The notes beneath the pieces are model-generated. The model was not told the origin of the DNA, ran no database searches, and saw only the letters and a list, made by a program, of their open reading frames with translations. DNA of 56,593 nt, taken from the NCBI GenBank assembly GCA_944321985.1, contig CALUNK010000136.1, positions 1-56,593 of the forward strand. Reading direction: 5' to 3'. The position numbers and the translations under genes are program-made. Origin of the DNA: Candidatus Methanomethylophilaceae archaeon (lineage in GTDB: Archaea; Thermoplasmatota; Thermoplasmata; Methanomassiliicoccales; Methanomethylophilaceae). The first letter of the stretch is position 1. Every line of letters begins with the position of its first letter. This document shows, piece by piece, positions 3,960 to 46,452 of the stretch.

Positions 3960-4014
3960 AGAATAAACTGTTCTTAGAGGTTTTCTAGATCCAGTTTTTC
4001 TTCCTGAATGGCGA

Positions 4015-28914: not shown

Positions 28915-29877
28915 ATGAAAAAGCAGTTAGTCGTGCTGGCGATGATTCTGGTTCTGACAGGAGTCTCCGTGACGGCACTATGCGTTTATCAGGACGATGT
29001 AAGGTCGGACGTCCATGTGCTGACTCCGGGGTATCTGGAAAGCGACGATTATGACGCTATGGTAAGACTGGGCGATTCGAACTATTGGAACGTATCCCTG
29101 GAGTCTAGGGTGGACGCGTCATGCTGGACCGATTCAGGCATGGTCTGTTTGATAAGCGTGACCGTCAGCGTCAACCAGGACTACGTCTTTGAGACGTTCG
29201 GGCTCCGTTACAGCTATGTTTCTGACGGCGACTCGCTCATTCCCTCCGACGCCGCCTCGGACCAGGACATGGGGCCAGACGTGTCTCGCCAATATGTCGA
29301 TCCTGTGACGGGCGACACGCTGTTGTTCCGTGAATCCGGTGGTATGCTGGAGAGCATAAGGTTCAATGGAACCACCGTCGTGGGCGGTGAGGGTGATTTC
29401 GAGTATGCGGAATTCGACCTGGTGGTGACCTACGAGCCACAGCTGAAGTATGTGAGCAAACTCATCCTTCGCGATGCAGGCGATAAGACCGAGATGGCGG
29501 TCCAGGGGACGGAGAACGGGATTCCGGTCTCGGGGAGCCTGTTGATCTCGCCGATGCCTGCGGTCGTGAACTCCGCAGCCTATGTCTCCGAAAGACACAT
29601 TCTGTCACTGGAACTGTCCGGAACCCTGATTCCCCAGGAGCTGCTGTCCGTGGTTATGCCTGCCAACGGAGGGACTATCAATCAGATGCTATGCACAACA
29701 TCGTATCTGAGACAGGACAGTACATACATAGTTCCTGAAATCGAGTACGATTATGGGGTTGACGAGTACGGAAAGACAATGTTCACCATGTCTGGAACTG
29801 TAATGATGTATCATCTCGACGGAGACTGCTACGCGATCTCCAAAGAAACGGTCGAGTTCGACTACGAGGTGGTGTGA
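28915..29877 (+). CDS. Membrane-anchored exported protein of ABC cassette A
   Basis: This 320-residue protein has an N-terminal export helix (KKQLVVLAMILVLTGVSVTA) and an otherwise extracellular beta-rich body with motifs such as SYVSDGDSLIPSDAASDQD, YVDPVTGDTLLF and EYAEFDLVVTYEP. A paralog of the same layout at 49777-50733 shares 'SYM/V-x-D-x-x-x-LVP-x-DA', 'DP-x-TG-x-x-L-x-F' and the C-terminal 'ETVEF-x-YEV'. Its TGA at 29877 directly abuts the ATG of the ATPase. It probably works outside the membrane with that ABC transporter, either as a substrate-handling partner or as an immunity/sensor protein. This is inference. Confidence 0.7.
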   Translation: MKKQLVVLAMILVLTGVSVTALCVYQDDVRSDVHVLTPGYLESDDYDAMVRLGDSNYWNVSLESRVDASCWTDSGMVCLISVTVSVNQDYVFETFGLRYSYVSDGDSLIPSDAASDQDMGPDVSRQYVDPVTGDTLLFRESGGMLESIRFNGTTVVGGEGDFEYAEFDLVVTYEPQLKYVSKLILRDAGDKTEMAVQGTENGIPVSGSLLISPMPAVVNSAAYVSERHILSLELSGTLIPQELLSVVMPANGGTINQMLCTTSYLRQDSTYIVPEIEYDYGVDEYGKTMFTMSGTVMMYHLDGDCYAISKETVEFDYEVV

Positions 29878-30801
29878 ATGGGCGGTACGCTCGTCGTGGA
29901 GGACGTCATCAAGACGTTCAGGGGCTTCCGCGCGGTGGACGAGGTCTCGTTCACCGTGTCGGAGGGGAGCTTCACCGCCCTCCTCGGTCCTAACGGATCC
30001 GGAAAGAGCACCACGCTGAAGATGTGCACCAACCTGTTCCAGCCGGATTCCGGCAGGATCCTGGTCAACGGGATCGACGTCCGCGAGGACACCGTCGGGG
30101 CCATGTCCGGCGTGGGGTGCGTCATAGAGACGCCCGAGATCTATCCTGACGTGACCGGCAGGAGGTACCTGGAGTATCTCGCCGAGGTGTCCGGGATGAC
30201 GTCGGAGTCCGCCGCGTCCGAGGCCGAGAGAGTCCTCGGCATCGTCGGCATGTCGGACCGCGCCGACGGGAAGGTGAAGGGATACTCCAAGGGCATGAGG
30301 CAGAGGGTGGTCCTGGCACAGTCGCTGCTGGGCGACCCGTCCCTTCTGATACTGGACGAGCCCACGTCCGGCCTGGACCCGCAGGGGTCCGCGGAGTTCG
30401 GGAGGATCCTCACGGACCTGAACTCGCGGGGGAAGACCATACTGATGAGCTCCCACATGCTTCATGAGGTCGAGGGGCTCTGTGACAGCGCCGTGATAAT
30501 CAACCGCGGGAGGGTCGCCAGGCAGGGAAGCATCGAGGAGATCGTCAGCAGGTCCACAATCACCGTATCCACGGTAGGGGACGTGAGCCGTGACATTATC
30601 TCGATGGTTTCCGATATGCCTGCGGTCACCGAGGCCTCCGCCATCGACGGTGGATTGACCGTCAGGCTGGACGGCGGTCCGGAGAGGCAGGCGGACCTCG
30701 TGAAGGCGCTTGTTTCGATGGGCGTGCGCGTGTACGCGGTCAGAAAGGAGGATCCCCTGGAGGAGGCCTTCATGGACATAACCGGGGGTGCCGGCTCATG
30801 A
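29878..30801 (+). CDS. ABC transporter ATP-binding protein (cassette A)
   Basis: A complete ATPase subunit of 307 residues. Walker A is ALLGPNGSGKSTTLKMCTNL (about residues 34-53). A Q-loop region follows with GVGCVIETPEIYPDVTG. The signature is YSKGMRQRVVLAQSLLGDP, Walker B is LLILDEPTSGLDPQG, and the H-loop is MSSHMLHEVEG. The C-terminal 80 residues are the 'ISRSTITV...VRKEDPLEEAFM' extension of the CcmA/NatA-type exporters. ATG directly follows the preceding stop, and its own stop overlaps the permease ATG by 4 bases, so the three genes form one unit. Confidence 0.95.
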   Translation: MGGTLVVEDVIKTFRGFRAVDEVSFTVSEGSFTALLGPNGSGKSTTLKMCTNLFQPDSGRILVNGIDVREDTVGAMSGVGCVIETPEIYPDVTGRRYLEYLAEVSGMTSESAASEAERVLGIVGMSDRADGKVKGYSKGMRQRVVLAQSLLGDPSLLILDEPTSGLDPQGSAEFGRILTDLNSRGKTILMSSHMLHEVEGLCDSAVIINRGRVARQGSIEEIVSRSTITVSTVGDVSRDIISMVSDMPAVTEASAIDGGLTVRLDGGPERQADLVKALVSMGVRVYAVRKEDPLEEAFMDITGGAGS

Positions 30802-31598
30802 ACGCCGCATACGCGCTCAGGCAGGTGTCCGTGATCACGCGGTTCGAGGCCCGCAGGAAGGTCCTGAGCTGGAGGATGCTGTTCCCGATGCTCTGCGCGG
30901 CGGTCATATGCGTGCTGGCGTACACCACAGGGAGCGGCGCCGCATCGGGGATGGACGGCACGGAGGCGTCCAACGCGTTCCTGAGGCCGTTCATCGCCTC
31001 CGCGTCGCTGGTCCTGGCGATAAGCGCCACCGTGATGTCCACCGAGTCCCTCTCGGAGGAGTTCGAGCGCAGGTCGGGATACATAACGTTCACCAAGCCC
31101 CTCGGCAGGAACGTGCTGTTCGCCGGGAAGTTCCTGTCGGGGTTCCTGCCGTCCGTCGCCGTTCTGGCGTTCTACTACGCGGTGACGTACGCCCTGTGCC
31201 TAGCGGTCGTCGGCGGCGTACCCGGCTCGGCGTTGACCTCGGTGCCCCTTGCGCTGCTGTACCTCGCGGCGGTCACGGGCGTGTGCATGCTGTTCAGCGC
31301 CCTGGCGCCCAGGGGCAGCATGGCCATGATGGTGGCCTTCCTGCTGCTCGTGGTGCTGCAGATCTTCATGCAGAACGTGGGGTTCGACAGCGAGCCGTGG
31401 TACAGCCTGGGGTACGAGGCGGGGATAATCGCCGACTACCCCATAGGCAACCAGACGGTGTTCAGAATTGACGCGTCAGGGAACCTTTACACATCGGACT
31501 ATGTCCCGGACATCAGGATGGCCTGCGCGGTGATGTCCGTATACGCCATACTGTCGACGGCGTTCGCGGCGTTCGTGTTCAGGTACAGGAACATGTGA
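30798..31598 (+). CDS. ABC-2 type permease (cassette A)
   Basis: This 266-residue integral membrane protein has about six hydrophobic segments, including FPMLCAAVICVLAYTTGS, PFIASASLVLAISATVMS, SVAVLAFYYAVTYALCLAVV, SALTSVPLALLYLAAVTGVC and MVAFLLLVVLQIFMQNVG. The motif ESLSEEFERRSGYITFTKPL with the linked 'R-x-x-LFAGKFLSGFLPS' is the cytoplasmic coupling loop of NatB/ABC-2 permeases. ATGA overlap with the ATPase ensures cotranslation. The cargo is unknown. A RiPP-like cluster begins 14 bases downstream, so the pair may export its product. Confidence 0.88.
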   Translation: MNAAYALRQVSVITRFEARRKVLSWRMLFPMLCAAVICVLAYTTGSGAASGMDGTEASNAFLRPFIASASLVLAISATVMSTESLSEEFERRSGYITFTKPLGRNVLFAGKFLSGFLPSVAVLAFYYAVTYALCLAVVGGVPGSALTSVPLALLYLAAVTGVCMLFSALAPRGSMAMMVAFLLLVVLQIFMQNVGFDSEPWYSLGYEAGIIADYPIGNQTVFRIDASGNLYTSDYVPDIRMACAVMSVYAILSTAFAAFVFRYRNM

Positions 31599-31612: not shown

Positions 31613-32626
31613 ATGGTTGAAAACAACAATAATGGGTATAAAGACGAAGTCGTACCGTTTTCATTATCCATTGACGTAACTCATAGATGCAATTTAAGAT
31701 GTAGGCATTGTTATAATGAAAGTGGTTCTGGATCCCGTAAAGAGTTGACAGATGATCAATTATTGAGAATTACAAAACAAATAGCGAATTTACCTGTAGA
31801 ATCTGTTTGTCTTAGTGGAGGAGAACCGCTCATACGTAGCAACATTCTCATCTCTTTAGTAAAGGAATTGAAGGATTCTGGAGTAGGAACAATCAGTATG
31901 ACTTCCAACGGAATGATGATTTCTAAGGAAATTGTTTACAATCTGGCTAAAGCAGGTATGAACAATGTACAAGTAAGTGTGGATGGATTGCGTGATGCAC
32001 ACGATTGGCTTCGCAACAAGTCTGGATCATTTGATAAAGTAATGGAATCAATAAAAGTCATCATCGAAGCTGGTTTAGAGGTTAGTGTTGCATGTATTCC
32101 AAATAAGAAAAACTTCAACGATTTTGAGGATTTAATTTGCAATCTTGATTCTATGGGAGTGTCGATGTTTCGTGTCCAACCAGTTATGATTTTAGGACGT
32201 GCTTGTCAACTCAAAACAGCTTTACTATCTCAGTCCGATTATATCCGCTTATCGTTGATGCTTTCCAGAATGGCAGTCAATTCTAGAATGAAAATCGAAT
32301 GGGGTGATCCTGCTCAGCATCTTTTATATTTAGCCTCTGGCAATCAAGCGAAAATGTTGTTTATTGATGATTGTGGAAATATTTCTCTCTCTCCATTCGT
32401 GCCTATTCACTTTGGAAATGTAATGAAAAAGACTTTGAAAGAATATGTTGAAGCAGGACTTTTAAATGTATGTACGTCGAATGATGAACTTCGTCAATTT
32501 TTTGGTTTATTCGGAAGTTCCATATTGATGTCTCCAGACGAACTTTCTGAACAGACTGTTAGTCACAGACTTCATTGTTCTAATTTTTCAAACATGTATT
32601 TCGTTAATCTTAATCGGTATGTCTAA
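31613..32626 (+). CDS. Radical SAM enzyme of a RiPP-like cluster
   Basis: Residues 26-33 read C-N-L-R-C-R-H-C, the CX3CX2C motif that binds the [4Fe-4S] cluster. SLSGGEPLIRSN (about residues 66-78) gives the GGEP SAM-binding motif, and SVDGLRDAHDWLR follows. The C-terminal part has a single DDCGNISLSPFVPIHFGNV strand and few Cys, so it lacks a full SPASM set of clusters. The base composition falls sharply (AT-rich) relative to the ABC genes. It starts 14 bases after the permease stop and overlaps the next gene by 8 bases. A PqqD-like RRE and a candidate precursor peptide downstream make a peptide-modifying role likely. Confidence 0.85.
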   Translation: MVENNNNGYKDEVVPFSLSIDVTHRCNLRCRHCYNESGSGSRKELTDDQLLRITKQIANLPVESVCLSGGEPLIRSNILISLVKELKDSGVGTISMTSNGMMISKEIVYNLAKAGMNNVQVSVDGLRDAHDWLRNKSGSFDKVMESIKVIIEAGLEVSVACIPNKKNFNDFEDLICNLDSMGVSMFRVQPVMILGRACQLKTALLSQSDYIRLSLMLSRMAVNSRMKIEWGDPAQHLLYLASGNQAKMLFIDDCGNISLSPFVPIHFGNVMKKTLKEYVEAGLLNVCTSNDELRQFFGLFGSSILMSPDELSEQTVSHRLHCSNFSNMYFVNLNRYV

Positions 32627-33080
32627 CCATTTGGAGTTAATTCATATGCTGAGAGTTTTGGGACCAGATGATGCCGAATCAATTTTGGCAACTGTTGGAG
32701 ATGTGAATATGGATTCTGGCAAGGACGTGGCTGTCTTTCACAACATTATGATGTTGAGAGAGTATATTCTGTTCGGTAAACTGATTATTGTGGGGGAGGA
32801 ATCGAAAAATAATAGGTTCAATATGCTTATTGTTTCAATTCCTAATATTACCTCAACACTTCAAGCTCTTACAATATTGTATTGTATTGGCGATTGTAAA
32901 TTCGTAGAAAGATCATGCTATCTGATCAAGTCACAATTTGGCGATATGTTCAGCAAGATTAGTGTCCATTTCTATACGGATAATATTCCAGAATGGATGA
33001 GTCCGATATTTAAACAAGAGATAACACATTATTGTACGCCGAGTTTATTTGTTTATTCATTCATATTTAACAAAGGGTAA
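32619..33080 (+). CDS. Hypothetical protein of the RiPP-like cluster
   Basis: The 153-residue product begins MSNHLELIHMLRVLGPDDAE and overlaps the radical SAM gene by 8 bases (ATGTCTAA). It has a mixed helix-strand pattern: MLREYILFGKLIIVGEE and NMLIVSIPNITSTLQALTIL are followed by VERSCYLIKSQFGDMF. There is no signal peptide. I do not recognise the family. The overlap suggests a stable partner of the enzyme, perhaps a substrate-binding or scaffold protein. Confidence 0.6.
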   Translation: MSNHLELIHMLRVLGPDDAESILATVGDVNMDSGKDVAVFHNIMMLREYILFGKLIIVGEESKNNRFNMLIVSIPNITSTLQALTILYCIGDCKFVERSCYLIKSQFGDMFSKISVHFYTDNIPEWMSPIFKQEITHYCTPSLFVYSFIFNKG

Positions 33081-33177
33081 CTTCCGGAACAAACAATTCA
33101 TCCCCTAATTCTTAATCATTAGATTCTGTAATAGTTAGTTCATGTTTTTTGAACACTTTAGTTAGCAGGTGAAGTTA

Positions 33178-34755
33178 ATGAAGATAACTTATGTTGAACG
33201 TAATGGTAAGCAGTATGCGTATTCTTGCACCTCCACCCGTGTTCCAGGCAAGAAGAATCCCATTTCTAAGATGACATATCTTGGTACATACGATCCGAAA
33301 ACAGGACTTATATCTCCAAAGAAAATCAGACCGGAGGCGTTAGAAGATTCTGTACATGATGGAAGTTTTACGTCATTAGATTATGGTAGTGTAATATTGT
33401 GTTATAGTATTGCTGAAAAATTAGGAGTTGTCGATGCAATTAAAACCACTTTCGGTGAGGATTTTGGAACCATCTTGGCATTGTCTATTGCTTATGCGGC
33501 AAATCCCTCCTCCAGCAGCGATCCTTTCGACGCAGTTCAGGGTTTTTATTTCCTGCCTTTCACAAATACCGTGTCTGTCTCTAAAACGGAAATGCGTAGA
33601 ATTAGTAAGATTATTGGAGAACGTATGTGGAAATACTATCTGGAACTAGGTTGTAAGAAAAAATCATTCCTTTTTGAATGTACGGATTTTAACAGAGAAT
33701 TGGAAAGCACGAGTAATGTAGAAGGATTGAATCTAAACTATTACCCCACATTTTTTATTGTAAACAGCGAGGGGCGTTTTATCATCAACGGATCCGCTAC
33801 TGGTTTGCAAGATCCAGATAGTGCTATAGGGTATGTCTTGGATAGAGGTAAAGAGTTATCAGAACGTATATCTGTAGTTCTTCCATGGGACTCCCGGAGA
33901 AAGTCCATTATCAAATTAATTATGAACAATCGTGACATGGTCGTTCCAATAAATCCATCATTGCCAGTTTTTAGATCAATGTATAGTGCGGATGCATTCG
34001 AGGACTCATATGGTATTCAAGAATGTATTTTTGACGGTCATATGTATCAGGTCATATCGTCAGTAGTGGGCCTTATATCATCGGGGGGAGGTTGGATTTT
34101 GATTGATAAAAAAGATTCGAGATTCGACGATAGAAATTACACGCTTAATGTTTACATATGGCGTGATGAAACTGAGGGCCTAAATGTTCTAGACACTGTG
34201 AGAAAGTTTTTCAAATTAAGATGTGAGGAGATGAAGAACATGACTCAGAGGCAAATCGAAGATGTTATCAATCCGAACTCATGGGAGTCGCAGTTCGTTG
34301 ATTTTAGTAAAGATGCATATGGTGAATATAATTGCTCAATAAAAACAGAACAAACCAGATATATTAGTTCAAACGCAGGATTGCATGCTTTCATAACGAC
34401 GACTTGTAGTTGGTACGAGTGTATGTCTGCAATCAAGCTATATAATAGACTTAATAAGTATATGAGATCCCTAACTGACCTATACAGCGGTCATTCGAGG
34501 TATAAGATTTCTTTTGATTCAAGATATATGCAGTATTTTATTCGTTGTATTTCTATAGATATCAGAATGGAGATCGAACGTGTGTTGGATATCAAAGAAT
34601 CTGAAATGACAGCAGATGACGTGTTTAGGATCGCTTCATCATATCGTACTGTTATTTCTGGAGAAACCACATATATTAGTTCTATGAGCCGTAAAACAAA
34701 GATGTTATTTGATTTGTTTGATGTATACACCGTCTCGACCTTGTCGAATGATTAA
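33178..34755 (+). CDS. IS1634/IS4-family transposase-like protein, probably degenerate
   Basis: ATG 33178 has AGGTGA just upstream (GTG 33169 is an alternative). The N-terminus (MKITYVERNGKQYAYSCTST and KMTYLGTYDPKTG) and the LDYGSVILCYSIAEKLGVVD segment match the start of IS1634-type transposases. The middle FLFECTDFN and VVLPWDSRRKSIIKLI stand where the first two catalytic Asp residues are expected, and the C-terminal helix ERVLDIKESEMTADDVFRIA is typical. I cannot find a convincing third catalytic acidic motif (Y-x-x-R-x-x-IE). No terminal inverted repeats are seen. It sits inside the RiPP-like cluster in the same direction, so it may be an inserted remnant or a recruited protein. Confidence 0.5.
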   Translation: MKITYVERNGKQYAYSCTSTRVPGKKNPISKMTYLGTYDPKTGLISPKKIRPEALEDSVHDGSFTSLDYGSVILCYSIAEKLGVVDAIKTTFGEDFGTILALSIAYAANPSSSSDPFDAVQGFYFLPFTNTVSVSKTEMRRISKIIGERMWKYYLELGCKKKSFLFECTDFNRELESTSNVEGLNLNYYPTFFIVNSEGRFIINGSATGLQDPDSAIGYVLDRGKELSERISVVLPWDSRRKSIIKLIMNNRDMVVPINPSLPVFRSMYSADAFEDSYGIQECIFDGHMYQVISSVVGLISSGGGWILIDKKDSRFDDRNYTLNVYIWRDETEGLNVLDTVRKFFKLRCEEMKNMTQRQIEDVINPNSWESQFVDFSKDAYGEYNCSIKTEQTRYISSNAGLHAFITTTCSWYECMSAIKLYNRLNKYMRSLTDLYSGHSRYKISFDSRYMQYFIRCISIDIRMEIERVLDIKESEMTADDVFRIASSYRTVISGETTYISSMSRKTKMLFDLFDVYTVSTLSND

Positions 34756-34843: not shown

Positions 34844-35050
34844 ATGGTTGAAGAGTATATCGCTCCAAGGATAGAAACAGAGTCGTCATCTTCTAACTTC
34901 TCAGTCATAATCGCACCGTTAATTGTGGGAAGTACAACCAATAATTTACGGCAAAAACAAGAGCTTGCTAATGATTATTCTTTATTAAAGTTTACAACAG
35001 AAGTTTTGTCGGTGACCAAATGTCAGAATGCTCATCACACAAAATATTGA
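34844..35050 (+). CDS. Candidate RiPP precursor peptide
   Basis: A 68-residue peptide begins MVEEYIAPRIETESSSSNFS. The Y-x-A-P-x-I stretch at residues 5-10 resembles the YxxP-type leader motif bound by PqqD-like RRE domains in lasso-peptide and related precursors. It is followed by a Ser-rich hinge, a hydrophobic VIIAPLIVGSTTNN segment, and a C-terminus ending in C-Q-N-A-H-H-T-K-Y. The gene directly precedes and overlaps by 31 bases the RRE gene, with a TATA-like sequence (TTTATATTTA) about 30 bases upstream. The boundary between leader and core is unknown, and so is the modification. Confidence 0.55.
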   Translation: MVEEYIAPRIETESSSSNFSVIIAPLIVGSTTNNLRQKQELANDYSLLKFTTEVLSVTKCQNAHHTKY

Positions 35051-35346
35051 AAAATGTGCTTTATGGTTGTGTTGCATCTTTACCGGAAAACATAAGCGGT
35101 TGGTACGAAGATGGTGAACTAGTAGTTGTTACGACGATCTTCAATAAAGATGATAAATTTAGTTTTAATAAAACAGCCATTTTCATTTATGAATTACTTG
35201 CCGGGAGAGAGCATGTGGAGGTGGATGTTTTAATTACTGAAGTTGCCACTCATTATCACTTGTCAAATCTAAAATTAATACGTGAAGATGTTTACACATA
35301 TATTCGTGAATTATGGTCTTTGGCTTTGATAAAGTGGGTTGGATAG
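35020..35346 (+). CDS. PqqD-like RRE protein (RiPP recognition element), followed by in-frame amber
   Basis: ATG 35020 has GGTGA five bases upstream. The 108-residue product fits the PqqD fold: a strand LVVVTTIFNKDDKFS, then NKTAIFIYELLAGREHVEVD, TEVATHYHLSNLK and REDVYTYIRELWSLALIKWV, the family pattern 'N-x-T-A-x-x-I-x-E-L-L-x-G...V-x-x-D-V-x-x-F-x-x-x-L-x-x-x-G-L-I-x-W'. The last codon is TAG at 35344. The same frame stays open to 35443 and, past a second TAG, to 35799, so read-through would yield a 259-residue RRE-GNAT protein. The RRE would bind the leader of the upstream precursor candidate. Confidence 0.7.
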   Translation: MSECSSHKILKNVLYGCVASLPENISGWYEDGELVVVTTIFNKDDKFSFNKTAIFIYELLAGREHVEVDVLITEVATHYHLSNLKLIREDVYTYIRELWSLALIKWVG

Positions 35347-35364
35347 AATCCATTATGCGACATT

Positions 35365-35799
35365 TTGCTCGAATCAGACATATTTACGATACGTCGTGCC
35401 ACTCACGATGATGCAAATGCTATTACAATATTTTTATCAAATTAGGATGTATGCACAGATCCATCTGTACAGATTGGTTTGACCGAATCTGAGATTATTA
35501 AATATTCTAGAGATGATACAATAAATATATTTCTGATGGAATGTAATAGAACATTAGCTGCATTGGTCATCATAAACAAATCAAAATATGGGGAGGTTTT
35601 ATTGTCCGGGGGATCATGTACAAACGTTAAATTAATAATGGATTGTCTTAGGAGGAGTGGATTTTATATTGCTTTTATAACCAGAGTCGCATTGGATGAT
35701 TGGTGTACAAGTAAATATTATAGGGAGGTTGGAATGGATTTTTGTGGCACTCTTGAAAAAGAGTTAAAAAGCGGAGATGTAAATATTTATATTTATTGA
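35365..35799 (+). CDS. GNAT-like acetyltransferase domain with an in-frame amber codon
   Basis: In the same frame as the RRE gene, residues read ESDIFTIRRATHDDANAITI, the first strand and helix of GNAT acetyltransferases. Then TAG at 35443-35445 is followed by DVCTDPSVQIGLTESEIIKY, LMECNRTLAALVIINKSKYG and later DDWCTSKYYREVGMDF, resembling the 'Y-x-x-x-GF' end of a GNAT domain. The only standard start near the beginning is TTG 35365. The usual coenzyme-A loop (Q-x-x-G-x-G) is not seen, so activity is uncertain. Its amber codon interrupts a region that continues naturally on both sides, which suggests pyrrolysine or a recent nonsense mutation. Confidence 0.5.
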
Positions 35800-37091: not shown

Positions 37092-38420
37092 GTGGGACAG
37101 AAAACCACAGTTATATCTGTAGAAAGTAATACGATGCCAGTGCTGAGAAGCCTGTATGTAAGGAATGCTACAGGTCACATAAGAATCTCGTGTATGTCAA
37201 GTGCAGCATCATGCAGGCCGTCAGATGATGAAAATCGTGTGGCTGCAGCTAAATATAATGCCCGATCCTATTTTGAAACCATGGTTCGTTGCACTGTGAT
37301 TCTGGGAGCAGGTGCTGTGTATGAGGCAAGTGGCGAGATGAACGATGGAAAATCTGTGAGTACAGAATCCATAACCTGTTCCCTTTATACTCAGTATGGC
37401 GATCCAATAGAATCAGAAGAATGTATCACATTGAGAAGGATTGTGGAATCCAACGGGGGTCCAGGCAACTTCAATTTTGAGGACGTCTACGAATTGCTCA
37501 TGGAGATCAGGGATTATGTCATGGGCATCTCTGAAGATCAAGATGGTTCCATGAGAAAAACCATGGAAACCTGTGGATTGAAGAAAGATGCCACTGTCGG
37601 TTATATAAATAGTCTGATTGACCGCCTCCTTCTAAGAGTCTTGCTTTCCATAACACCATATGATGGGAAGGAACCTCCTGCATGGTTCTCTGGTTTCTTC
37701 TCCAGATTGGAATCATTGAACGATGACGCGATTTCGTTTGATTTTTGCGTGCTCAATTATGACACCTGGGTGGAAAAATCTCTCAATCGGTATAATGACG
37801 GGTTCGTCAGAGCTAAACTTGATTCTGGAGATCCTGATGAATATTCCATTTTCAAGAAATCAATGATCGCATCTTCTGATGATTCTAATAGGCTGTGTCA
37901 TCCTCATGGATGTGTGAATTACGGCGGACCTCTTAATGGAAAACCCCATGGAGATGCGGAAATTTGCCTGTGGAATCATTGTATTTCGGTATCAAGGAAT
38001 GGAATGCAGTATTCGGAAGGGGATAGTAGCAAACCTGTGCTGTCACCGATAGTAACCGGAAAAAGGAAAAAGAGGAACTTCTACTACGAACCTTTCAAAA
38101 CGTATTTAGATTTGATAGAGGGCCCAATGGCATCCAATGAGATCGTATTGATCATTGGATATGGTTTCGGAGATCCACACATCAATGAGATCATAAGAAA
38201 ATACAAGAAAGGTTCTGGAAAACACCTAATCGTAATTTCGCCGTTCTCAGAAAAGACCAAGGAAGATATCAGAACTGTGTGCGAATATGATGTCGAACAA
38301 AAAGAGGGAGCGTGGATGTCGGATGATGCTTATGCAGTATGGTTTATGTCCGGATTTAAAGAGATGACTATGAACGATGATGTCATAGAAACTATAAGGG
38401 ATATGGCAAAGCAACATTGA
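37092..38420 (+). CDS. SIR2-like NAD-binding protein
   Basis: Key SIR2-type motifs appear in order: CTVILGAGAVYEASG (the glycine-rich NAD site), DFCVLNYDTWVEKSL (the 'T/L-NYD-x-x-E' motif), RLCHPHGCVNYGG (the active-site His region) and EIVLIIGYGFGDPHINEII, the 'GYS/GF-x-D-x-x-I' end. Such SIR2-like proteins lack the histone deacetylase zinc module and act as NAD-consuming defense effectors (Thoeris ThsA, DSR, SIR2-HerA). GTG 37092 is the earliest start; ATG 37281, seven codons before the glycine-rich motif, is a strong alternative. No ThsB or HerA partner is directly adjacent; a TIR gene lies 1 kb downstream. Confidence 0.7.
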   Translation: MGQKTTVISVESNTMPVLRSLYVRNATGHIRISCMSSAASCRPSDDENRVAAAKYNARSYFETMVRCTVILGAGAVYEASGEMNDGKSVSTESITCSLYTQYGDPIESEECITLRRIVESNGGPGNFNFEDVYELLMEIRDYVMGISEDQDGSMRKTMETCGLKKDATVGYINSLIDRLLLRVLLSITPYDGKEPPAWFSGFFSRLESLNDDAISFDFCVLNYDTWVEKSLNRYNDGFVRAKLDSGDPDEYSIFKKSMIASSDDSNRLCHPHGCVNYGGPLNGKPHGDAEICLWNHCISVSRNGMQYSEGDSSKPVLSPIVTGKRKKRNFYYEPFKTYLDLIEGPMASNEIVLIIGYGFGDPHINEIIRKYKKGSGKHLIVISPFSEKTKEDIRTVCEYDVEQKEGAWMSDDAYAVWFMSGFKEMTMNDDVIETIRDMAKQH

Positions 38421-38731
38421 ATCCGGATACTGTTGGATTTAATCTTCATTAAATGAGAATTAATGGAAAAATAGTCTGCATGATCTGTTATCTCGAATAC
38501 AAGAATAAGCTGGACAAAAATGAATTATGAAAAATTCAATTTTGGACTATAGTTTTGCTTTTATTGAAGACTTTCCTAAATTATCTGTACGATTCGTAAG
38601 CATGCAATACGTTGAATATGACTCGTTCCCGGAATCAGCCAGATACCGTATCGATAAGCATTTGACATAGCAAATACAAACAAAATGCATGATTGCAAGA
38701 ATATAAGAAGGGATCTGTCGGCTCGGTTTGA
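38421..38731. other. Stretch without a supported gene
   Basis: AT-rich sequence between two convergent genes. No frame with protein character, hairpin or RNA gene is seen. Confidence 0.4.
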
Positions 38732-39196
38732 TTACAGGTATCGCCTCCTGAAAGCTCTCATGAATCCGAAGTCGGTGGGTCCGTTCATCTTGGGCGGCCA
38801 TCCATTATGGATCGCCGATTGATCGGAATTCTTCAGGAAGATGTTCGCATCGGGTGCGTGGGAACCTATTCTGGCTATGCCCTTCATGCAGGCGGACTTG
38901 TCCGCATACGCCTGGGACACGGCTGTGATCTCACCGTTCGAAGCCTTGAGCCTGAACCTCGGCTTGCCGCCTACATCGAGGTAAACCTCGTACTTTGGAT
39001 GCCTTAGGACCTCGCAGCCTTCCACCGTCTGGTCCTCGACCGGTGCGGCGCAGTTTGTGCGGACGCTCTCGATTCCGATCTTCGCGTTGGCGACGGATGC
39101 GTACGTCTGGGAGCTGCTGATCACGCGGTTGTTGTTGGCGATTAGGTTGAACATGTACCTTCCGTCGGACGTTTGCTTGACTGAGAACCTTCCCAT
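38732..39196 (-). CDS. DUF1508 (YegP-like) protein with altered C-terminus
   Basis: ATG 39196 has GGTGA seven bases upstream. Two DUF1508 repeats are visible: GRFSVKQTSDGRYMFNLIAN followed by NNRVISSSQTYASVANAKIG, and YEVYLDVGGKPRFRLKASNG followed by TAVSQAYADKSACMKGIARI. The family forms small beta proteins of unknown function, often induced by stress. A close paralog lies at 49152-49532 on the other strand. After the shared APDA, this copy has a longer unrelated tail (NIFLKNSDQSAIHNGW...), so its end may be shifted by an indel or rearrangement. Confidence 0.78.
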   Translation of the reverse strand: MGRFSVKQTSDGRYMFNLIANNNRVISSSQTYASVANAKIGIESVRTNCAAPVEDQTVEGCEVLRHPKYEVYLDVGGKPRFRLKASNGEITAVSQAYADKSACMKGIARIGSHAPDANIFLKNSDQSAIHNGWPPKMNGPTDFGFMRAFRRRYL

Positions 39197-39393
39197 TTGC
39201 ATTCACCGCGTGTGTATTGAGCCATGATTTAAACTTTGAATTTTCATGACATTTCAGTACAAATGATGTAGGTCTGTTGGAATCCGAAATTAAATTAATC
39301 AAATCATCGTCCAAAAGTGATTGAAGTCCCTCATTGATTGTATGTCTTCCAAACAATCAGTAATTTCAAAAACCCGCATGAATATGATCCTGT

Positions 39394-40029
39394 GTGTCGC
39401 ATAACTGTTTCATATCGTTCAAAAAAGAAGATGAGTACTATTGCAAGAAGATTGCTGAACTATTAAAAATCGAATCGATGTCCGGAAAATATCTGGATGA
39501 ATGGATCGACTCCGAGGATCTTGATTATGTCATGCAGAGGATCAGAAAAGAATACATGAAGGGATCCAGCGTGACTCTTTATCTCATTGGTAAACACTCG
39601 TCTGAAAATGAAGGACTGGATGAATTCGGTCGTTCAAAACAGAGTTTCATGATCAGAGAACTGCAAGCCACATTGTTCGATAGAAAAGGAAACAGTTTGA
39701 GCGGTCTCATCGGAATTGTGTTACCTGAGATGGAATCCGAGATATTCGGCGATTCATACCGCTGTGAGACGTGCGGAAAGGAGATCAGCATTGTTCGCAT
39801 CAATGATGAAACCGTTTTAAGGGAGTTCTCACAGAACTATTTGTTGGAGAAAGGTGATTGCGATCATTATCCTGAAGATGGCAGATTCTGCGTTTTGGTA
39901 AAATATTCTGATTTTATTTACAACCCCCAAAAGTATATAGATCAGGCATTCGACAAAACGAAATCCAAAATTGCCGAGAAGGTTCATTACAGGGACATCT
40001 CACACAAGGGTCTGAAATCATACAAGTGA
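39394..40029 (+). CDS. thsB: TIR-domain protein, ThsB-like (DUF1863)
   Basis: The 211-residue protein starts with GTG 39394, reading (M)SHNCFISFKKEDEYYCKKI. This is the 'F-I-S-x-K-x-D' start of MTH538/ThsB-type TIR domains. A loop with DEWIDSEDLDYVMQRIRKEY, a strand GSSVTLYLIGKHSSEN, the region KQSFMIRELQATLFD containing the Glu of the 'W-x-x-E-I' motif, and LSGLIGIVLPEM follow, as in the family. TIR proteins of Thoeris sense infection and make an NAD-derived signal. The next gene overlaps by 4 bases (GTGA) and encodes a membrane-anchored macro domain, the expected signal receptor in type II Thoeris. A cysteine pair insertion (CETCGKE) may form a zinc knuckle. Confidence 0.78.
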   Translation: MSHNCFISFKKEDEYYCKKIAELLKIESMSGKYLDEWIDSEDLDYVMQRIRKEYMKGSSVTLYLIGKHSSENEGLDEFGRSKQSFMIRELQATLFDRKGNSLSGLIGIVLPEMESEIFGDSYRCETCGKEISIVRINDETVLREFSQNYLLEKGDCDHYPEDGRFCVLVKYSDFIYNPQKYIDQAFDKTKSKIAEKVHYRDISHKGLKSYK

Positions 40030-40778
40030 TTGGAATGTACCTGGTGTTTCGTAGTCTGTCCGTCATATCGTTAGCACTGGCAATGCTTACTGCAGCACTA
40101 CCCAGATATTCCATTTATTTTGTTGTCGCAATCATCGTTATCATTCTGTTACTATGTCTTGTTGAATGGTTTGTTCCAAAGACGATAAAGATCAACGGTG
40201 AAAAGACAAATATAGTTCTGGAATACGGCGATCTGCTGAAAAAGACGGATGGAATCATAGTCATACCTGTAGATAGGAACTACAATACGACCGTAGACGA
40301 CATCATCATATCCGGTAATACTCTGCATGGAAAATTCATCAACAATATTGTCAGAAACAAGGATGCATTTGTCAGTGAACTCTCATCGGCACTGGAATCT
40401 GAACCCGATGAGAAGGGAGCGTTCGAAACACAACAGCCAGGACACGTTGTTCCCGTAACAATACAGGGTTGCACCTATTATCTGTTGGCTTTATCGAAAC
40501 TTGATCAGAACAACAAAGCTCATTGCACGCCGGAAGAATACGCAAAAGCCATTGAAACCCTAATGGGATACATAGATACGAACTTCAATGGTAGGAAAAT
40601 ATACATGCCATTGATTGGTGGCGGGTTGTCTGACGTTTTTGGTTCGATAAATGATACAGAGTCTCTTCAGATTCTGGTTTCTTTGATAAAATTGAGTCAA
40701 CATGCCAGAATAGATGAGATCCATATCGTCATCTACAAACACTCGAAACATCACGCCTTGATTCAAATGGTGAATTGA
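40026..40778 (+). CDS. Membrane-anchored macro-domain effector (type II Thoeris-like)
   Basis: Two membrane helices (LSVISLALAMLTAALPR and YFVVAIIVIILLLCLVEWFV) precede a macro-like domain. The latter has KTNIVLEYGDLLKKTDGIIV, then NTLHGKFINNIVRNKDAFV, GHVVPVTIQGCTYYLLAL and PLIGGGLSDVFGSIND with the G-G-G loop of ADP-ribose binding. In type II Thoeris a two-helix macro protein binds the TIR-made ADPR derivative and disrupts the membrane. GTG 40026 overlaps the TIR stop (GTGA); ATG 40035 is also possible. The pair is cotranscribed. The assignment is by architecture and motif; the archaeal occurrence is notable. Confidence 0.78.
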   Translation: MIGMYLVFRSLSVISLALAMLTAALPRYSIYFVVAIIVIILLLCLVEWFVPKTIKINGEKTNIVLEYGDLLKKTDGIIVIPVDRNYNTTVDDIIISGNTLHGKFINNIVRNKDAFVSELSSALESEPDEKGAFETQQPGHVVPVTIQGCTYYLLALSKLDQNNKAHCTPEEYAKAIETLMGYIDTNFNGRKIYMPLIGGGLSDVFGSINDTESLQILVSLIKLSQHARIDEIHIVIYKHSKHHALIQMVN

Positions 40779-41046
40779 ACAGATACAAAATCTTTCACTT
40801 AACAATTGCTGTATCGCTCTTTGAATTCTTTCTTATTTTACTAATGGGAAAAACGATAATACTGAAAAATACGTAATCCGATAAACCTTTTAAAATTACA
40901 AACACAACTGATTACCTTTTTTTTGCCTCCGGACAACCCCTCGTGCACTGTCGCCTGCGACATATCGCCCTTTCCGATTCCATCGTAAAGTGACGTAAGC
41001 CGCAGGCGCCCGGCCGTTCCCTCGGGGTTTCCCCGGGAGGCGGCAA

Positions 41047-41370
41047 ATGCCTGTGAAGAAGACCACGAAGAAAGATAATGAGACGAAGAAGGAGAACATC
41101 AACAGACATCCGGACGTCATCAGACTGAAGAACGAGCATATCAGGGAACTGAACAGATTCCTGGCGGAGAACAGATTCTACGCCTTCGAAGGTGGAGAGA
41201 AGTTCGATGAAGGGATGAGGAAACTCGGACTTGAACCGACGGACACAGACAAGATCGTCGATGTCGGCGGCGGAGCGATGAGACGTGACAAGGTCCCGGA
41301 ACTGAAGGCCCTGATCGAGAAACAGGGGAAGGAGCTGCGGGAGATGAAGAAGGCCCTCAGGGGATCCTGA
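41047..41370 (+). CDS. Hypothetical small charged protein
   Basis: ATG 41047 follows GGGAGGCGGCAA, a good ribosome site. The 107-residue protein is Lys/Glu-rich and helical: MPVKKTTKKDNETKKENINR, then LKNEHIRELNRFLAENRFYA and KALIEKQGKELREMKKALRG. This suggests a coiled segment. Base composition is GC-rich unlike the island genes around it. A hairpin terminator follows at once. No family is recognised. Confidence 0.62.
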   Translation: MPVKKTTKKDNETKKENINRHPDVIRLKNEHIRELNRFLAENRFYAFEGGEKFDEGMRKLGLEPTDTDKIVDVGGGAMRRDKVPELKALIEKQGKELREMKKALRGS

Positions 41371-41375
41371 GGGCA

Positions 41376-41397
41376 AGGGGCGGAACGCCCCTCTTTT
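41376..41397 (+). terminator. Hairpin terminator
   Basis: A seven-base-pair stem, AGGGGCG-GAA-CGCCCCT (41376-41392), is followed by CTTTT, five bases after the stop of the small charged protein gene. Confidence 0.72.
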
Positions 41398-41483
41398 ACA
41401 AAGTGTCCTGGTACAACTCGAAGAAATCTCAGCCAATGGTCGATGGCAATATAATCACATAATGTATCAGTGATTTGAACCTT

Positions 41484-43346
41484 ATGCAGATACAATCGAA
41501 TCGTGATGAGCTCGATAGCATCATCTTCGGTACAGGAGATTCGGTCAGGACGATGGATTCCGATATACCTTTGGAGGACAGACTAAAGATCCTCCGCAGG
41601 GAGTTCCGCGTGGAATGCGAGACAAATGTCCTTCGTATCAGTCCCGTCTGCTCCCAGACGACGGTAACGTTGGTATTGGAAAACCACACGGCCATCGTTC
41701 AGGACCGCCATATCATCGGATACGTGTTTGACTCCGCCATTAGTCCTGGGCCTGGGGTAGAACTTGCCTTCTGCCGCTTCGATGACGTAATGGCCGATGC
41801 CCGCTTTGACGGGGACCTGATGATGATAGGCTGCGTGTTTGGGGGAAATGTCCGTATGTGTCACAGCACCATACACGGCGATCTGTCCCTGGACTGCTCG
41901 ATGTTCGAGAACGATGCAATCTTCAACAGGATGGTGTGTGACGGTACCGCTTCCTTCGACCACTGCACATTCGTGAAGAAGGCCGGGTTCAACAGCTGCG
42001 ATTTCAAAGGAAAGGCATCCTTCAGATCCGTTGGGTTCCACGGAGAGGCGGATTTTGCTGATGCCACGTTCTCCAACAAAGCACTGTTCGACCGCGTTAT
42101 CATCGACAGTGATGATACGGAGACAGACTACACCGTATTCACCGATGCTGTTTCCTTCTCCGCCGCAAGATTCGACCATTTCGCGAACTTCCATGGGACA
42201 TCGTTCCTAAAATCGGCCAATTTCAATGGCACCATCTTCAACAGTAAGACATTCTTCGAGGGATTGGGTCTTTCCAATAGAGCATGTTACGTCGGAATGT
42301 CGTTCAAAAACACCCATTTCGGCATATACACCTCGATCTCCGACGTCAGCATAGAGGGCGAATTCAGATTCGAGTCTGTAACCTGTGACGGCGAACTCTT
42401 TGTCTCCGGCACAAGGTTTCTCAAAAGTCCCATACTATCCGACCTAATTGTCAACGGGTACACCACGTTCCAGCGCCTAGAGTTTGGAGACGATGCGAAG
42501 AAGATGTCCGTGATCCGTTCGACCTTCCATGGTGATTTGGATGTTGATTTCCTCGTCAGGGACATGGATAAACAGAATCTCAGGACCCTCCTCCTGTCCA
42601 CTTGTTGGATCACAGGACATCTACACATCGCCGGTGCCGTCAATCTCATCGATTTACAGGAGACGGTCATCGACGGGGCTACAAGGCTGGATATCCAGAG
42701 GAAGGATGGAGAGGATGCGCCCGATCTATGGCTGGATCTGAGATATGCGTCGTTCGGTTCCACCGTCCAATTCAGATGGGTGTGTCTGCATGACAACAAC
42801 GGACATCTGGAAGGTAACGTCCTGTCGGAGATCGGGAAGGAGGAGCTCTTCGAAGCCGTTCGCATCCTGATGGATAAGCCAGGAGGTCCGAACAACAAGC
42901 AGATGGCTGCACAGATGCTCATGCTCCGCAACGCATTCGACAGGATCGGACGCTTCGACGAGGCGGACTTCTTCCTTCGGAAGTACAACAACTATCAGTG
43001 CAGGACTGACACCGGCTCGAAGGGTGCTGATAGTCCCTCACGCTTTCTCAAGAGAGCCGGCATGGAAATCATGAAGGTGTTCGGTCAGTACGGAACGAGC
43101 ATCGCACTCATTGCGTTATGGATGGTTGTCATCCCAACCATTGTGGGGGTGATCATGACAGTCCTTGGGAGCCAACCTTTGGATGCCTTCAAGGACTCGT
43201 TCGTGGCCTTCATCACCATGAGCCTCGGAGTCACCCCAGACGGGCTGAGCGATGTCCAGCACATCCTGCTGATTGCCGAGGGATTCCTAGGCGTCTTCCT
43301 GATGTCCTTCCTGGTGACATCGATCGCCAGGAAGCTGTTCAGATGA
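41484..43346 (+). CDS. Pentapeptide-repeat protein fused to a two-helix ion-channel-like domain
   Basis: From ATG 41484 the first 380 residues contain pentapeptide-type repeats, with recurring Phe-x-x-Ala/Cys-x-Phe: DHCTFVKKAGFNSCDFKGKA, SFRSVGFHGEADFADATFSN, SFSAARFDHFANFHGTSFLK. These build a right-handed beta helix. The last 100 residues have two membrane helices (GTSIALIALWMVVIPTIVGV and HILLIAEGFLGVFLMSFLVT) around a pore-like FVAFITMSLGVTPDG loop, as in two-helix K-channel-type domains with an altered filter. The C-terminus ends in SIARKLFR. Possible roles are a gated pore in cell suicide or stress sensing. A 41-codon frame overlaps the stop (ATGA). Confidence 0.75.
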   Translation: MQIQSNRDELDSIIFGTGDSVRTMDSDIPLEDRLKILRREFRVECETNVLRISPVCSQTTVTLVLENHTAIVQDRHIIGYVFDSAISPGPGVELAFCRFDDVMADARFDGDLMMIGCVFGGNVRMCHSTIHGDLSLDCSMFENDAIFNRMVCDGTASFDHCTFVKKAGFNSCDFKGKASFRSVGFHGEADFADATFSNKALFDRVIIDSDDTETDYTVFTDAVSFSAARFDHFANFHGTSFLKSANFNGTIFNSKTFFEGLGLSNRACYVGMSFKNTHFGIYTSISDVSIEGEFRFESVTCDGELFVSGTRFLKSPILSDLIVNGYTTFQRLEFGDDAKKMSVIRSTFHGDLDVDFLVRDMDKQNLRTLLLSTCWITGHLHIAGAVNLIDLQETVIDGATRLDIQRKDGEDAPDLWLDLRYASFGSTVQFRWVCLHDNNGHLEGNVLSEIGKEELFEAVRILMDKPGGPNNKQMAAQMLMLRNAFDRIGRFDEADFFLRKYNNYQCRTDTGSKGADSPSRFLKRAGMEIMKVFGQYGTSIALIALWMVVIPTIVGVIMTVLGSQPLDAFKDSFVAFITMSLGVTPDGLSDVQHILLIAEGFLGVFLMSFLVTSIARKLFR

Positions 43347-43468
43347 ACCATCTGTTCATCGAATCGGAGGGGCCCTATGAGGGCACGACCGCGGAGTACA
43401 ACGGACACGGCTCGGTGGACAAAGAGGTCGTGGATGACATCGCGGGATTCATCCTGAACCGATCGTGA
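43343..43468 (+). CDS. Tiny protein overlapping the channel-like gene
   Basis: ATG 43343 overlaps the preceding TGA as ATGA, and the 41-residue frame ends just before a terminator, so it looks like a cotranscribed cistron. It reads MNHLFIESEGPYEGTTAEYN, then VDKEVVDDIAGFILN. Family unknown. Confidence 0.5.
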   Translation: MNHLFIESEGPYEGTTAEYNGHGSVDKEVVDDIAGFILNRS

Positions 43469-43471
43469 AAC

Positions 43472-43493
43472 GCCGACCCCTTCCGGGGTCGGC
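43472..43493 (+). terminator. Hairpin terminator
   Basis: GCCGACCCC-TTCC-GGGGTCGGC is a perfect nine-base-pair stem (43472-43493), followed by ATCTTCCCTT. It ends the pentapeptide/tiny-protein unit four bases after its last stop codon. Confidence 0.75.
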
Positions 43494-43659
43494 ATCTTCC
43501 CTTATCATTTCCGAACGGATTTGGGGACGACGTGAACGATGACCGGAACTGTCGGTATATCCATGTTGTCCTCAATGGATGATTCGAACAGGCCTGGTTC
43601 CATCCGGATTCCTGCCATGTCAGCACCGGTCCGTCCGCGTGTCCTCAGAACTGACATAA

Positions 43660-44175
43660 ATGGGAATGGAAAAGTATGACCAGGAACGAAAGTTGATTAA
43701 TCGAAATTGCCTTGCGATCCCTATGGATTCGGAGATAACCTTCAGGAGCGCCTACGGCCCCGTCGTCTACATTTCGATGGTTCTGTTGCTCCTGATCTTC
43801 GCCGTTCTCATATTCGTCCTCCCGAGCATCGGCTTGGTTTTGGTGGTACTCCTCATCATCCTGGAGACCTTCGTCGCACTGACCCCGTTCATGCTGAGGT
43901 ACACCTTCGACGACGAGAAGGTCACGGTGTCCAACCCGTTGGCAACTCCGGAACCCCCGGCGTACTACGACAGGATCTGGAAGGTCGAGGATTCAAGGAA
44001 GGAGTACGCCTCGAACATGCACGGCGCATCCCCCGACTCCATCAGGATATGGTACGACCGCGGAACCGGGCACTACATCTGCATCTCGCCCAGCGACAAG
44101 AGGCGCGCGATGGACATACTCAGGGAACGGTGTCCGGATGCGGAATTCATACCCAGTGATGATGCCTGTTCCTGA
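43660..44175 (+). CDS. Membrane protein with bacterial PH-like domain (bPH_6 type)
   Basis: The 171-residue protein has two adjacent hydrophobic helices (GPVVYISMVLLLLIFAVLIF and SIGLVLVVLLIILETFVALT), then a C-terminal PH-like domain: LRYTFDDEKVTVSNP, AYYDRIWKVEDSRKEYASNM, DSIRIWYDRGTGHYICISPS and a final helix AMDILRERCPDAEF. The 'S-x-D-x-I-x-I-x-Y...ISP-x-D-x-x-x-F/M' pattern is that of YvcQ/bPH_6 proteins. The domain probably faces the cytoplasm. A start at ATG 43666 is equally possible. Function unknown. Confidence 0.68.
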   Translation: MGMEKYDQERKLINRNCLAIPMDSEITFRSAYGPVVYISMVLLLLIFAVLIFVLPSIGLVLVVLLIILETFVALTPFMLRYTFDDEKVTVSNPLATPEPPAYYDRIWKVEDSRKEYASNMHGASPDSIRIWYDRGTGHYICISPSDKRRAMDILRERCPDAEFIPSDDACS

Positions 44176-44196
44176 TAATCGCCGGAGATGGGATCC

Positions 44197-44331
44197 ATGG
44201 AAGACGGCACGATGGTCGCTGTTGCGATGGTGTTCGGCCCCGCCCTCATCCTGATCGGATTGGTCGCCACACTGATCCTCGTCTGGCTTCTCTGGTACAT
44301 CAACGTACGCTGTCGCAATACACCACACTGA
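44197..44331 (+). CDS. Tiny single-helix membrane protein
   Basis: ATG 44197 lies nine bases after GGAG; an in-frame ATG lies at 44188. The 44 residues include a long hydrophobic helix (MVAVAMVFGPALILIGLVAT then LILVWLLWYI) and a short basic tail. It is 21 bases after the PH-like gene and probably shares its mRNA. Confidence 0.5.
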   Translation: MEDGTMVAVAMVFGPALILIGLVATLILVWLLWYINVRCRNTPH

Positions 44332-44491
44332 AAAACGACATTTGGATAGTTTAATATCCACGATATTCGAACGCACCGGCCAATTCGATCGTCTAGGCAC
44401 CATTTTCCGTTCTGCTGGAACGAAATCCTGAAGCGTTTTGTGTTTCATGTTTTTAGGAAATAATGACTCGCGAATCGGGTTAATCGTCGTT

Positions 44492-45700
44492 TCATTTCAA
44501 CGACTCTATGACGTTATGCAATCTGTCAATCAGATCGTCATATGTGATGATGTCTACAATATGAGAATACTGTCTTCTCAGGAGTTCGATGGAATCCAAT
44601 ATCTCATCATCCTCTGTATTACTACGGCCCATTATGATGATTCCGCGAGGGTTTAATACCTTCAGTTTTAGCGAGTCTGGTAATGGTTTACCGGATTCGG
44701 AAAAATGCTTTTTTACATTATTAACAGCCGCTGTGCTGTTTTTATTAAGACCGTATAAATAGTTCTCAACCTGGGCAACAACATTACCCAGATATCTGCT
44801 AGGAACGTAATTGTTGCGATCTCTGACCAGATGTTCGTTGTATGTCGCCAACAGATCGACCTTCGGGTCCTTTATTTCGATGATGTCGATGTATCCGGAA
44901 CTGTTGACGACAACGAAATCCACACGTTTCCCCTTGCCGTACATCTCAGTGAGTTTGGATTCACGCGTAACGTATGCATACTGCGGATAAAGGAGCTTTA
45001 CGATTTCCATGATCCGCTCCTGCCAATCGGTTTCCTTGTAGCTCTCGACATTATTCAGCATCTCCCTCATCTCCTCATAAAGAAAAGTATACTTCTGCAG
45101 ATCGAAGGTACGTATGTCCGGGAGATCATCCATCTTCTTTCCTTTCCTGAGTTTCTCCACATACCTGTCATAAGCGTAACGGTAATCCTTTGGCAATTCC
45201 AACTCGGCACTCAGTATCTCTGCGGCCCTCAATCTTTTGTAATGCCTGTATTCTGTACTATTAGGATACTTCCCCATAGCTGATTTCAATAACTCTGGTG
45301 AAAGATCTCCATCCTCATTTCCGATTGTAATATCTCTCTTCAATACTTCGAAGACGACGTCCATCGCGTTAGGCATATAGTAGTCTTTGAAGTATGACGA
45401 ATCGAGTTCAGACATCTCCCTTATAGAGAGGGTGTATTTTTCCGACAGGACAGGTGGCCTGATAACATACAACCCATTCTCGTAATCTCCGATTTTGAAG
45501 TGAACGTGCTCTTCTATCGGGTCTTCTAAAAATCCCTTCCCCGCATCTATGTTGGATTGTGTTATCTCGAATATCCTGCATAATTTGATGGAAGAGTTCC
45601 ATTTCAACAGTTCTTTAATCCAGTCTGTACCATCGCGAGGAGTGTAGTCTACATAAACACCCGTTTCATCATATTCTAGTTCGAAAACCACAGTGGTCAT
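44492..45700 (-). CDS. sduA: Shedu-type defense nuclease (DUF4263)
   Basis: This 402-residue protein has the Shedu C-terminal nuclease: DWQERIMEIVKLLYPQYAYV, then KRVDFVVVNSSGYIDIIEIK with the D...E-x-K catalytic set, DLLATYNEHLVRDRNNYVPS and RYLGNVVAQVENYLYGL. All are conserved in DUF4263 proteins. The N-terminal 200 residues are the sensing part (LSIREMSELDSSYFKDYYMP and others). Shedu is a single-gene anti-phage system whose oligomer nicks DNA. The ATG at 45700 stands directly on an AGGAGG, so a GTG nine bases later may be the true start. It follows a TIR gene on the same strand, 73 bases away, and may be a separate unit. Confidence 0.85.
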   Translation of the reverse strand: MTTVVFELEYDETGVYVDYTPRDGTDWIKELLKWNSSIKLCRIFEITQSNIDAGKGFLEDPIEEHVHFKIGDYENGLYVIRPPVLSEKYTLSIREMSELDSSYFKDYYMPNAMDVVFEVLKRDITIGNEDGDLSPELLKSAMGKYPNSTEYRHYKRLRAAEILSAELELPKDYRYAYDRYVEKLRKGKKMDDLPDIRTFDLQKYTFLYEEMREMLNNVESYKETDWQERIMEIVKLLYPQYAYVTRESKLTEMYGKGKRVDFVVVNSSGYIDIIEIKDPKVDLLATYNEHLVRDRNNYVPSRYLGNVVAQVENYLYGLNKNSTAAVNNVKKHFSESGKPLPDSLKLKVLNPRGIIIMGRSNTEDDEILDSIELLRRQYSHIVDIITYDDLIDRLHNVIESLK

Positions 45701-45773
45701 CCTCCTAACGTAGCGATATGATCACCGCATTGCTGTGAACAGTATCTGAAATCCGACGATAGATGGCAATTAC

Positions 45774-46448
45774 TCATGAAATCCATCTTTCGTCTATCCT
45801 TTTCACCATATCGAACCGATCCCATTCCATACGGTTCCTAAGTGCCAGATCGATAGCTTGTTCCGGGTTGGAGCGGAAATCCGACCACGTCGTCAACTCT
45901 ATGTAGCTGTCCCCGTGAACGTACATAGGGTTACCATATCTGTCTTTGAAATGATCGACCCCCCGTCTGTTGAACATATTCTCTAGGATTATCCTGAAGA
46001 AAGCTCTTTTTTTCACGAAGATATTGCGGCCGTCTGAATACATGGCATAGTTGTAGCTCCCGTTCCTGTCGGGTAGAACGACCGCAAGTATAGCGTTCAT
46101 GTTACTGCTTCCGTCGGAACGGGTCTTGTTCTTCAGAGAATATGATATCTCCCATGGAATCCACTGTTCTATCTCCCGGACATTCTCGAACATCCCCGGA
46201 GAGATGAGGACTATGGTTACGCTCGTATAGAACATCCTGTCGGCCAGCTTCCTTTCAATCGTCCTGTAATCCAAATAGGAAAGATCCTCTCCGTCATTCT
46301 CTCCTCTGAAATAGAACCTGTCGGTCCCTTCCAGGATTCTGGATATTACATCCACATAATCTCTGACTGTAGTCCTGTGTCCAGAATTGACGAACTGTCT
46401 GACGTTGGAATCTGCATACTTGTACGATACGAACACATTCCTTCCCAC
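45774..46448 (-). CDS. TIR-domain protein 1, ThsB/DUF1863-like
   Basis: GTG 46448 gives (M)GRNVFVSYKYADSNVRQFVN, the typical 'N-x-F-V-S-Y-K-Y-x-D' opening of MTH538-type TIR domains. YFRGENDGEDLSYLDYRTIE, SVTIVLISPGMFENVREIEQ, WIPWEISYSLKNKTRSDG (with the Glu of the W-x-x-WEI-x-YSL motif) and AILAVVLPDRNGSYNY follow. This 224-residue protein is a close relative of TIR 2. It begins four bases after the stop of the small membrane protein. The cluster TIR-membrane-TIR suggests a Thoeris-like signalling module. A start at 46535 is unlikely because its extra codons overlap the membrane gene. Confidence 0.78.
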   Translation of the reverse strand: MGRNVFVSYKYADSNVRQFVNSGHRTTVRDYVDVISRILEGTDRFYFRGENDGEDLSYLDYRTIERKLADRMFYTSVTIVLISPGMFENVREIEQWIPWEISYSLKNKTRSDGSSNMNAILAVVLPDRNGSYNYAMYSDGRNIFVKKRAFFRIILENMFNRRGVDHFKDRYGNPMYVHGDSYIELTTWSDFRSNPEQAIDLALRNRMEWDRFDMVKRIDERWIS

Positions 46449-46452
46449 AGAA

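Follow-up and report, generated by a model that had tools for sequence, protein, structure and literature searches.

Pyrrolysine is the 22nd amino acid and is encoded by TAG. For the Methanomassiliicoccales, the passages on amber genes in two genome reports count 46 such genes in ISO4-H5, ten insertion elements among them (PMC5011839), and, with the methyltransferases left aside, 16 in Ca. M. alvus (PMC4153887). In the latter paper, Borrel et al. argued that an in-frame amber, once it has newly arisen in Ca. M. alvus, is stable as a mutation. Insertion of pyrrolysine is thought to be governed by competition with the release factor, with no need for an mRNA element (PMC9499178). RRE proteins of RiPP pathways, as presented in the main texts of two surveys (PMC7470986, PMC12710340), have a PqqD-like domain (PF05402) and are encoded next to a radical SAM enzyme and a short precursor whose leader is conserved. 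The locus described here shares this arrangement but differs in that its RRE is fused to a GNAT-fold domain.

The window analysed is a stretch of 56,593 nucleotides from a Candidatus Methanomethylophilaceae archaeon. On its forward strand, a single ATG frame at 35020-35799 runs for 259 codons to a final TGA (35797-35799) and contains two in-frame TAG codons, TAG1 at 35344-35346 (codon 109) and TAG2 at 35443-35445 (codon 142). The frame, the coordinates, the codons and the 32-codon spacing from TAG1 to TAG2 were given in an initial annotation of this DNA and were confirmed when the sequence was re-read. Throughout the 259 codons there is no TAA, no TGA and no frameshift. For random sequence of the same composition the expectation is about 11 stops per 151 post-RRE codons (5.3 TAA, 3.1 TAG and 3.1 TGA), whereas the 150 codons beyond TAG1 hold no TAA, no TGA and one further TAG. 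Therefore, the frame is coding or was coding until recently. The chance that both nonsense codons would be TAG is 0.07-0.10, an argument that rests on two codons.

To the N-terminal side of TAG1 lies a PqqD-like RRE part (35020..35343, forward strand, codons 1-108). PF05402 matches codons 47-104 (E 9.3e-5), and while the 23.1 bits of the window protein are slightly below the cut-off of 23.4, four of its five homologues pass with scores up to 32.0 bits. The read-through sequence, with lysine put at both TAG sites, was modelled by AlphaFold2 on the homologue alignment and gave a pLDDT of 88 and a pTM of 0.83. The secondary structure of this model (wHTH, three strands, three helices) is consistent with an RRE. 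Since the last RRE strand comprises residues 104-107 and TAG1 stands two codons past the end of the fold, a product halted at TAG1 could be a whole RRE. The C-terminal GNAT-like part (35347..35796, forward strand, codons 110-259) has the GNAT fold according to Foldseek, which matched it to RimL, SpeG and MccE, the best PDB match being RimL 1z9u (E 1.8e-7). TAG2 falls inside this part, so that GNAT-like sequence flanks it on both sides as the initial annotation had stated. A Pfam search of the same part matched zero GNAT models. The canonical acetyl-CoA loop of GNAT proteins reads Q/R-x-x-G-x-G/A; looked for by eye in the homologue alignment, it was not conserved. As judged from fold and alignment, GNAT-like is the correct label and acetyltransferase only a putative one.

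Of 102 genomes of the same family, four besides the window's, namely G019, G034, G090 and G025, yielded five homologues of the RRE-GNAT protein (two of them in G034), the nearest being about 29% identical to the window protein. Every one of the five is a single open frame across both TAG positions, with N, T, K, G and S opposite TAG1 and C, S, S, S and C opposite TAG2, and a TAG at either site occurs in none of them. Coding sequence and homology in the window gene extend on both sides of TAG. A 400-genome sample of the class added only weak and partial matches; no relatives were found in the viral contigs searched or in 84,980 species genomes queried with a single RRE-GNAT protein, and a second RRE-GNAT gene was not found in the window's genome. 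Because the five homologues in four other genomes are unbroken and the read-through model is confident, the RRE and GNAT-like parts are one gene, best regarded as an ancestral fusion, which occupies 35020..35799 on the forward strand. The initial annotation, which had placed both domains in one frame, had raised the alternatives that related genomes hold such fusions, with or without the TAGs, or always carry the two domains as separate genes; in the four genomes they are fused, without TAG at these positions. At L045:4356-4507 in G034, a 322-codon frame of the family is extended at its N-terminus by sequence that includes a (YI)n repeat; the extension probably reflects a miscalled start and overlaps a divergent precursor gene. 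A stand-alone protein of G019 (L043:8460-8909) adjoins an ABC exporter, matches the family C-terminus with its own C-terminus (E 7.9e-6) and is possibly a free GNAT-like partner.

The GNAT-like part had been credited with TTG as its only possible start. Two TTG codons are indeed in frame (35365 and 35479), yet the domain itself also contains an in-frame ATG (35536). The accompanying view that separate translation is unlikely stands, given homologues that are unsplit in five of five cases and starts that are TTG or late. A GNAT gene with its own start was rejected as a candidate on the same grounds.

The window's genome is a fragmented draft of 141 contigs that is 86% complete. Its contig C11 carries pylS, scoring above the curated cut-off, with pylC-like and pylD-like ORFs and, immediately ahead of pylS, a pylT-like tRNA with a CTCTAAA anticodon loop, these three being recognised by sequence and position. 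PylS, a probable tRNA-Pyl(CUA) and pyrrolysine synthesis genes are accordingly all encoded. The same contig holds two copies of mtmB with one TAG each, and an mtbB with one TAG and an Rfam PYLIS match. Stop usage was counted in about 0.78 Mb of the window's genome, where TAG terminates 13 of 548 called genes (2.4%), and in about 1.89 Mb from another genome of the genus, where it terminates 45 of 1376 (3.3%). In the window's genome, frames run on past a terminal TAG for a median of 111 codons compared with 28-30 codons past TAA or TGA, as expected if many TAGs are not stops, with miscalled frames perhaps contributing. Because of these pyl genes, the amber mtmB and mtbB genes and the low share of TAG among called stops, pyrrolysine could be inserted at both RRE-GNAT ambers. 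Pyrrolysine decoding had been proposed in the initial annotation, for which the absence of pyl genes would have been fatal. PylS is also encoded by three of the four homologue genomes (G019, G034 and G025), and in G090, which is 85% complete, none scored above the cut-off.

Ambers elsewhere were surveyed with the codon-model version of the search, in which some antisense shadow frames remain; the interrupted genes named here were picked by eye. At L059:12711 a TAG stands inside conserved sequence opposite Asp of a 70% identical homologue, and at L028:10466 and 10544 two TAGs lie inside conserved sequence relative to a homologue that is 46% identical. The former belongs to a conserved gene (L059:12642-13031) whose single TAG precedes the end of the alignment by 23 codons, and the latter two to a conserved gene (L028:10283-10987) with a third TAG near its end. 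The window itself contains another TAG-bridged frame of 423 codons (2046-3317, reverse strand), located next to AbiL-type genes where the sequence is AT-rich, with a weak homologue in G076 that is open and 34% identical over 80 aa. A sequencing or assembly error may be suspected behind one or both RRE-GNAT TAGs in so fragmented a draft, but errors that twice gave the same stop by independent substitution, without an indel, would form an unusual pattern and other ambers of the genome are conserved or expected, and we consider this explanation very improbable. RNA folding 3' of TAG1 and TAG2 was no better than that of shuffles (z 0.78 and -0.18), and an Rfam search around both TAGs gave zero matches. 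These results are consistent with incidental ambers, and incidental is how the ambers of the RRE-GNAT gene look.

The RRE-GNAT gene is part of a putative RiPP cluster on the forward strand. The radical SAM enzyme (31613..32626) matches PF04055 (E 8.4e-30), has an intact CxxxCxxC motif and lacks a cysteine-rich SPASM tail. On its 3' side follows a 153-aa protein without a recognised fold (32619..33080), with counterparts in G034 and G090 and a low-confidence model (pLDDT 53). The 153-aa gene is separated from the precursor by a transposase-like ORF of 528 aa (33169..34755), whose IS1634-type resemblance was seen by eye; Pfam and NCBIfam searches of it gave zero matches, and similar ORFs also flank the G090 cluster. 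The cluster is located inside an island of defence genes (3426-5280, 7947-8714 and 37092-46535) whose members include AbiLi/AbiLii (RloA/RloB-like), PD-T7-4-like, SIR2, ThsB and ThsA (Thoeris), Shedu SduA and a second ThsB. Two three-gene modules at 28915-31598 and 49777-52454 resemble each other in the lengths (about 320, 307 and 266 aa) and the arrangement of their ORFs; in the former, an ABC ATPase and an ABC-2 membrane protein were identified, and 15 bases separate its end from the radical SAM gene.

The precursor-peptide gene (34844..35050, forward strand) keeps the family leader and has lost the core. The five precursors of the relatives share the leader M.EEY..P.I, continued by I.P.LV, and the window leader is retained through IIAPLIV, beating all 200 shuffles against L043. 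Ala, Val and Gly make up 55-57% of the core in three measured relatives versus 17% in the window precursor, whose GRAVY is -0.19 versus 1.4-1.7. The core was probably lost by frameshift, and a frameshift-aware alignment of the window precursor found no significant continuation of it. No other precursor match was found in the window's genome. In the relatives' clusters, a 540-aa ABC exporter is present in G019, G090 and G025 and a DUF3784 gene in G019 and G034; neither was recognised adjoining the window's cluster, which looks damaged and may be decaying.

The coreless leader, the transposase-like ORF within the cluster, the exporter and DUF3784 genes unrecognised beside it and the lack of further RRE-GNAT or precursor copies elsewhere in this genome all speak for a decaying pseudogene, in which both TAGs would be ordinary nonsense mutations that arose after selection lapsed and the read-through product would be functionless. 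However, neither the radical SAM ORF nor the 153-aa ORF is broken, and ambers alone interrupt the RRE-GNAT frame. Nor does its GNAT half appear accelerated relative to other members of the family, being 29.3% identical to L007 where the other members give 31.0, 27.6 and 24.3%. A recent gene death would fit each of these three points too, and we regard a dead gene as a serious competing explanation, if one held at less than even odds.

The initial annotation had suggested that the ambers tie precursor modification to pyrrolysine supply. As a switch, scarce pyrrolysine would leave a free RRE and plentiful pyrrolysine would yield the RRE-GNAT protein, and peptide maturation would track methylamine supply. 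The position of TAG1 directly past the RRE fold, with a short product that could be complete, and the pyrrolysine machinery in the genome would suit such control. But none of the five homologues has either TAG, though G019, G034 and G025 have PylS; the sites are variable; TAG2, within the GNAT-like part, contributes nothing to such control; a recoding RNA structure is absent; the core of the precursor is gone; and unrelated genes carry ambers as well. The switch is therefore very unlikely. If it were true, peptide modification in a methanogen would be coupled to methylamine metabolism via stop-codon read-through. In sum, the fusion and the capability for pyrrolysine are supported and the regulatory link is not.

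We favour, at about even chances, the reading that the RRE-GNAT fusion is ancestral and that its two ambers are incidental and probably suppressed as pyrrolysine, in a possibly decaying cluster. On this reading the frame goes back to a single ancestral gene whose product is a RiPP protein of two domains. Its N-terminal RRE, from the gene neighbourhood and the conserved leader, is inferred to bind the precursor leader, and the GNAT-fold domain, possibly without acetyltransferase activity, would act on the substrate or hold it for the radical SAM enzyme. Two codons at unconserved places would have mutated to TAG in the window's genome. Because the cell would make pyrrolysyl-tRNA(CUA), ribosomes could decode both TAGs as pyrrolysine or stop at them, and the outcome would be part full-length fusion and part RRE-only product. 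The ambers would be tolerated substitutions in a TAG-suppressing cell, not an evolved switch, and weakened selection on a cluster with a coreless precursor would help them to persist. Incidental ambers and a dead gene shade into one another as explanations.

The radical SAM and RRE-GNAT genes co-occur in exactly the same 5 of 102 genomes, on the same contigs. Five complete or near-complete radical SAM copies were aligned besides the window's; four of them keep CxxxCxxC, one G090 copy is without its N-terminal part as called, and the aligned copies lack the cysteine-rich SPASM tail. Enzyme, RRE and precursor are adjacent in the relatives; in the window the precursor lacks a core. The words 'GNAT' and 'acetyltransferase' are absent from the main texts, supplements aside, of the RRE-Finder surveys PMC7470986 and PMC12710340. 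Because the GNAT fusion is absent from both main texts, the combination of radical SAM enzyme, RRE-GNAT protein and Ala/Val-rich precursor may be an undescribed archaeal RiPP family. Our guess, given a hydrophobic Ala/Val core, is that the radical SAM enzyme may be an epimerase or carry out comparable chemistry. The analysis exposes a small methanogen RiPP family with a conserved EEYxxPxI leader, which gene callers would truncate or miss.

Compared with the GNAT acetyltransferases RimL, SpeG and MccE, the C-terminal half has the same fold, but at 10-19% identity, with no Pfam match and an unconserved acetyl-CoA loop. The MtmB and MtbB methyltransferases use the same codon and decoding machinery and are present in the window's genome; their TAG is conserved and mtbB has a PYLIS (Rfam), whereas the window gene has neither. 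The two-amber gene joins the debated pyrrolysine genes outside methylamine metabolism, and its homologues reveal the prior residues at the amber sites, so that tolerance and selection become separable. Closest to it are the non-methyltransferase amber genes of Methanomassiliicoccales (cas1, MtxX and others in Ca. M. alvus, PMC4153887; ISO4-H5, PMC5011839), in whose amber-gene passages the RRE-GNAT gene is not named. As described there, these genes likewise have an in-frame TAG that is missing from relatives, in genomes with a pyl cassette and few TAG stops; the RRE-GNAT gene differs from them in carrying two ambers within its short length and in belonging to a variable accessory cluster with a lost precursor core.
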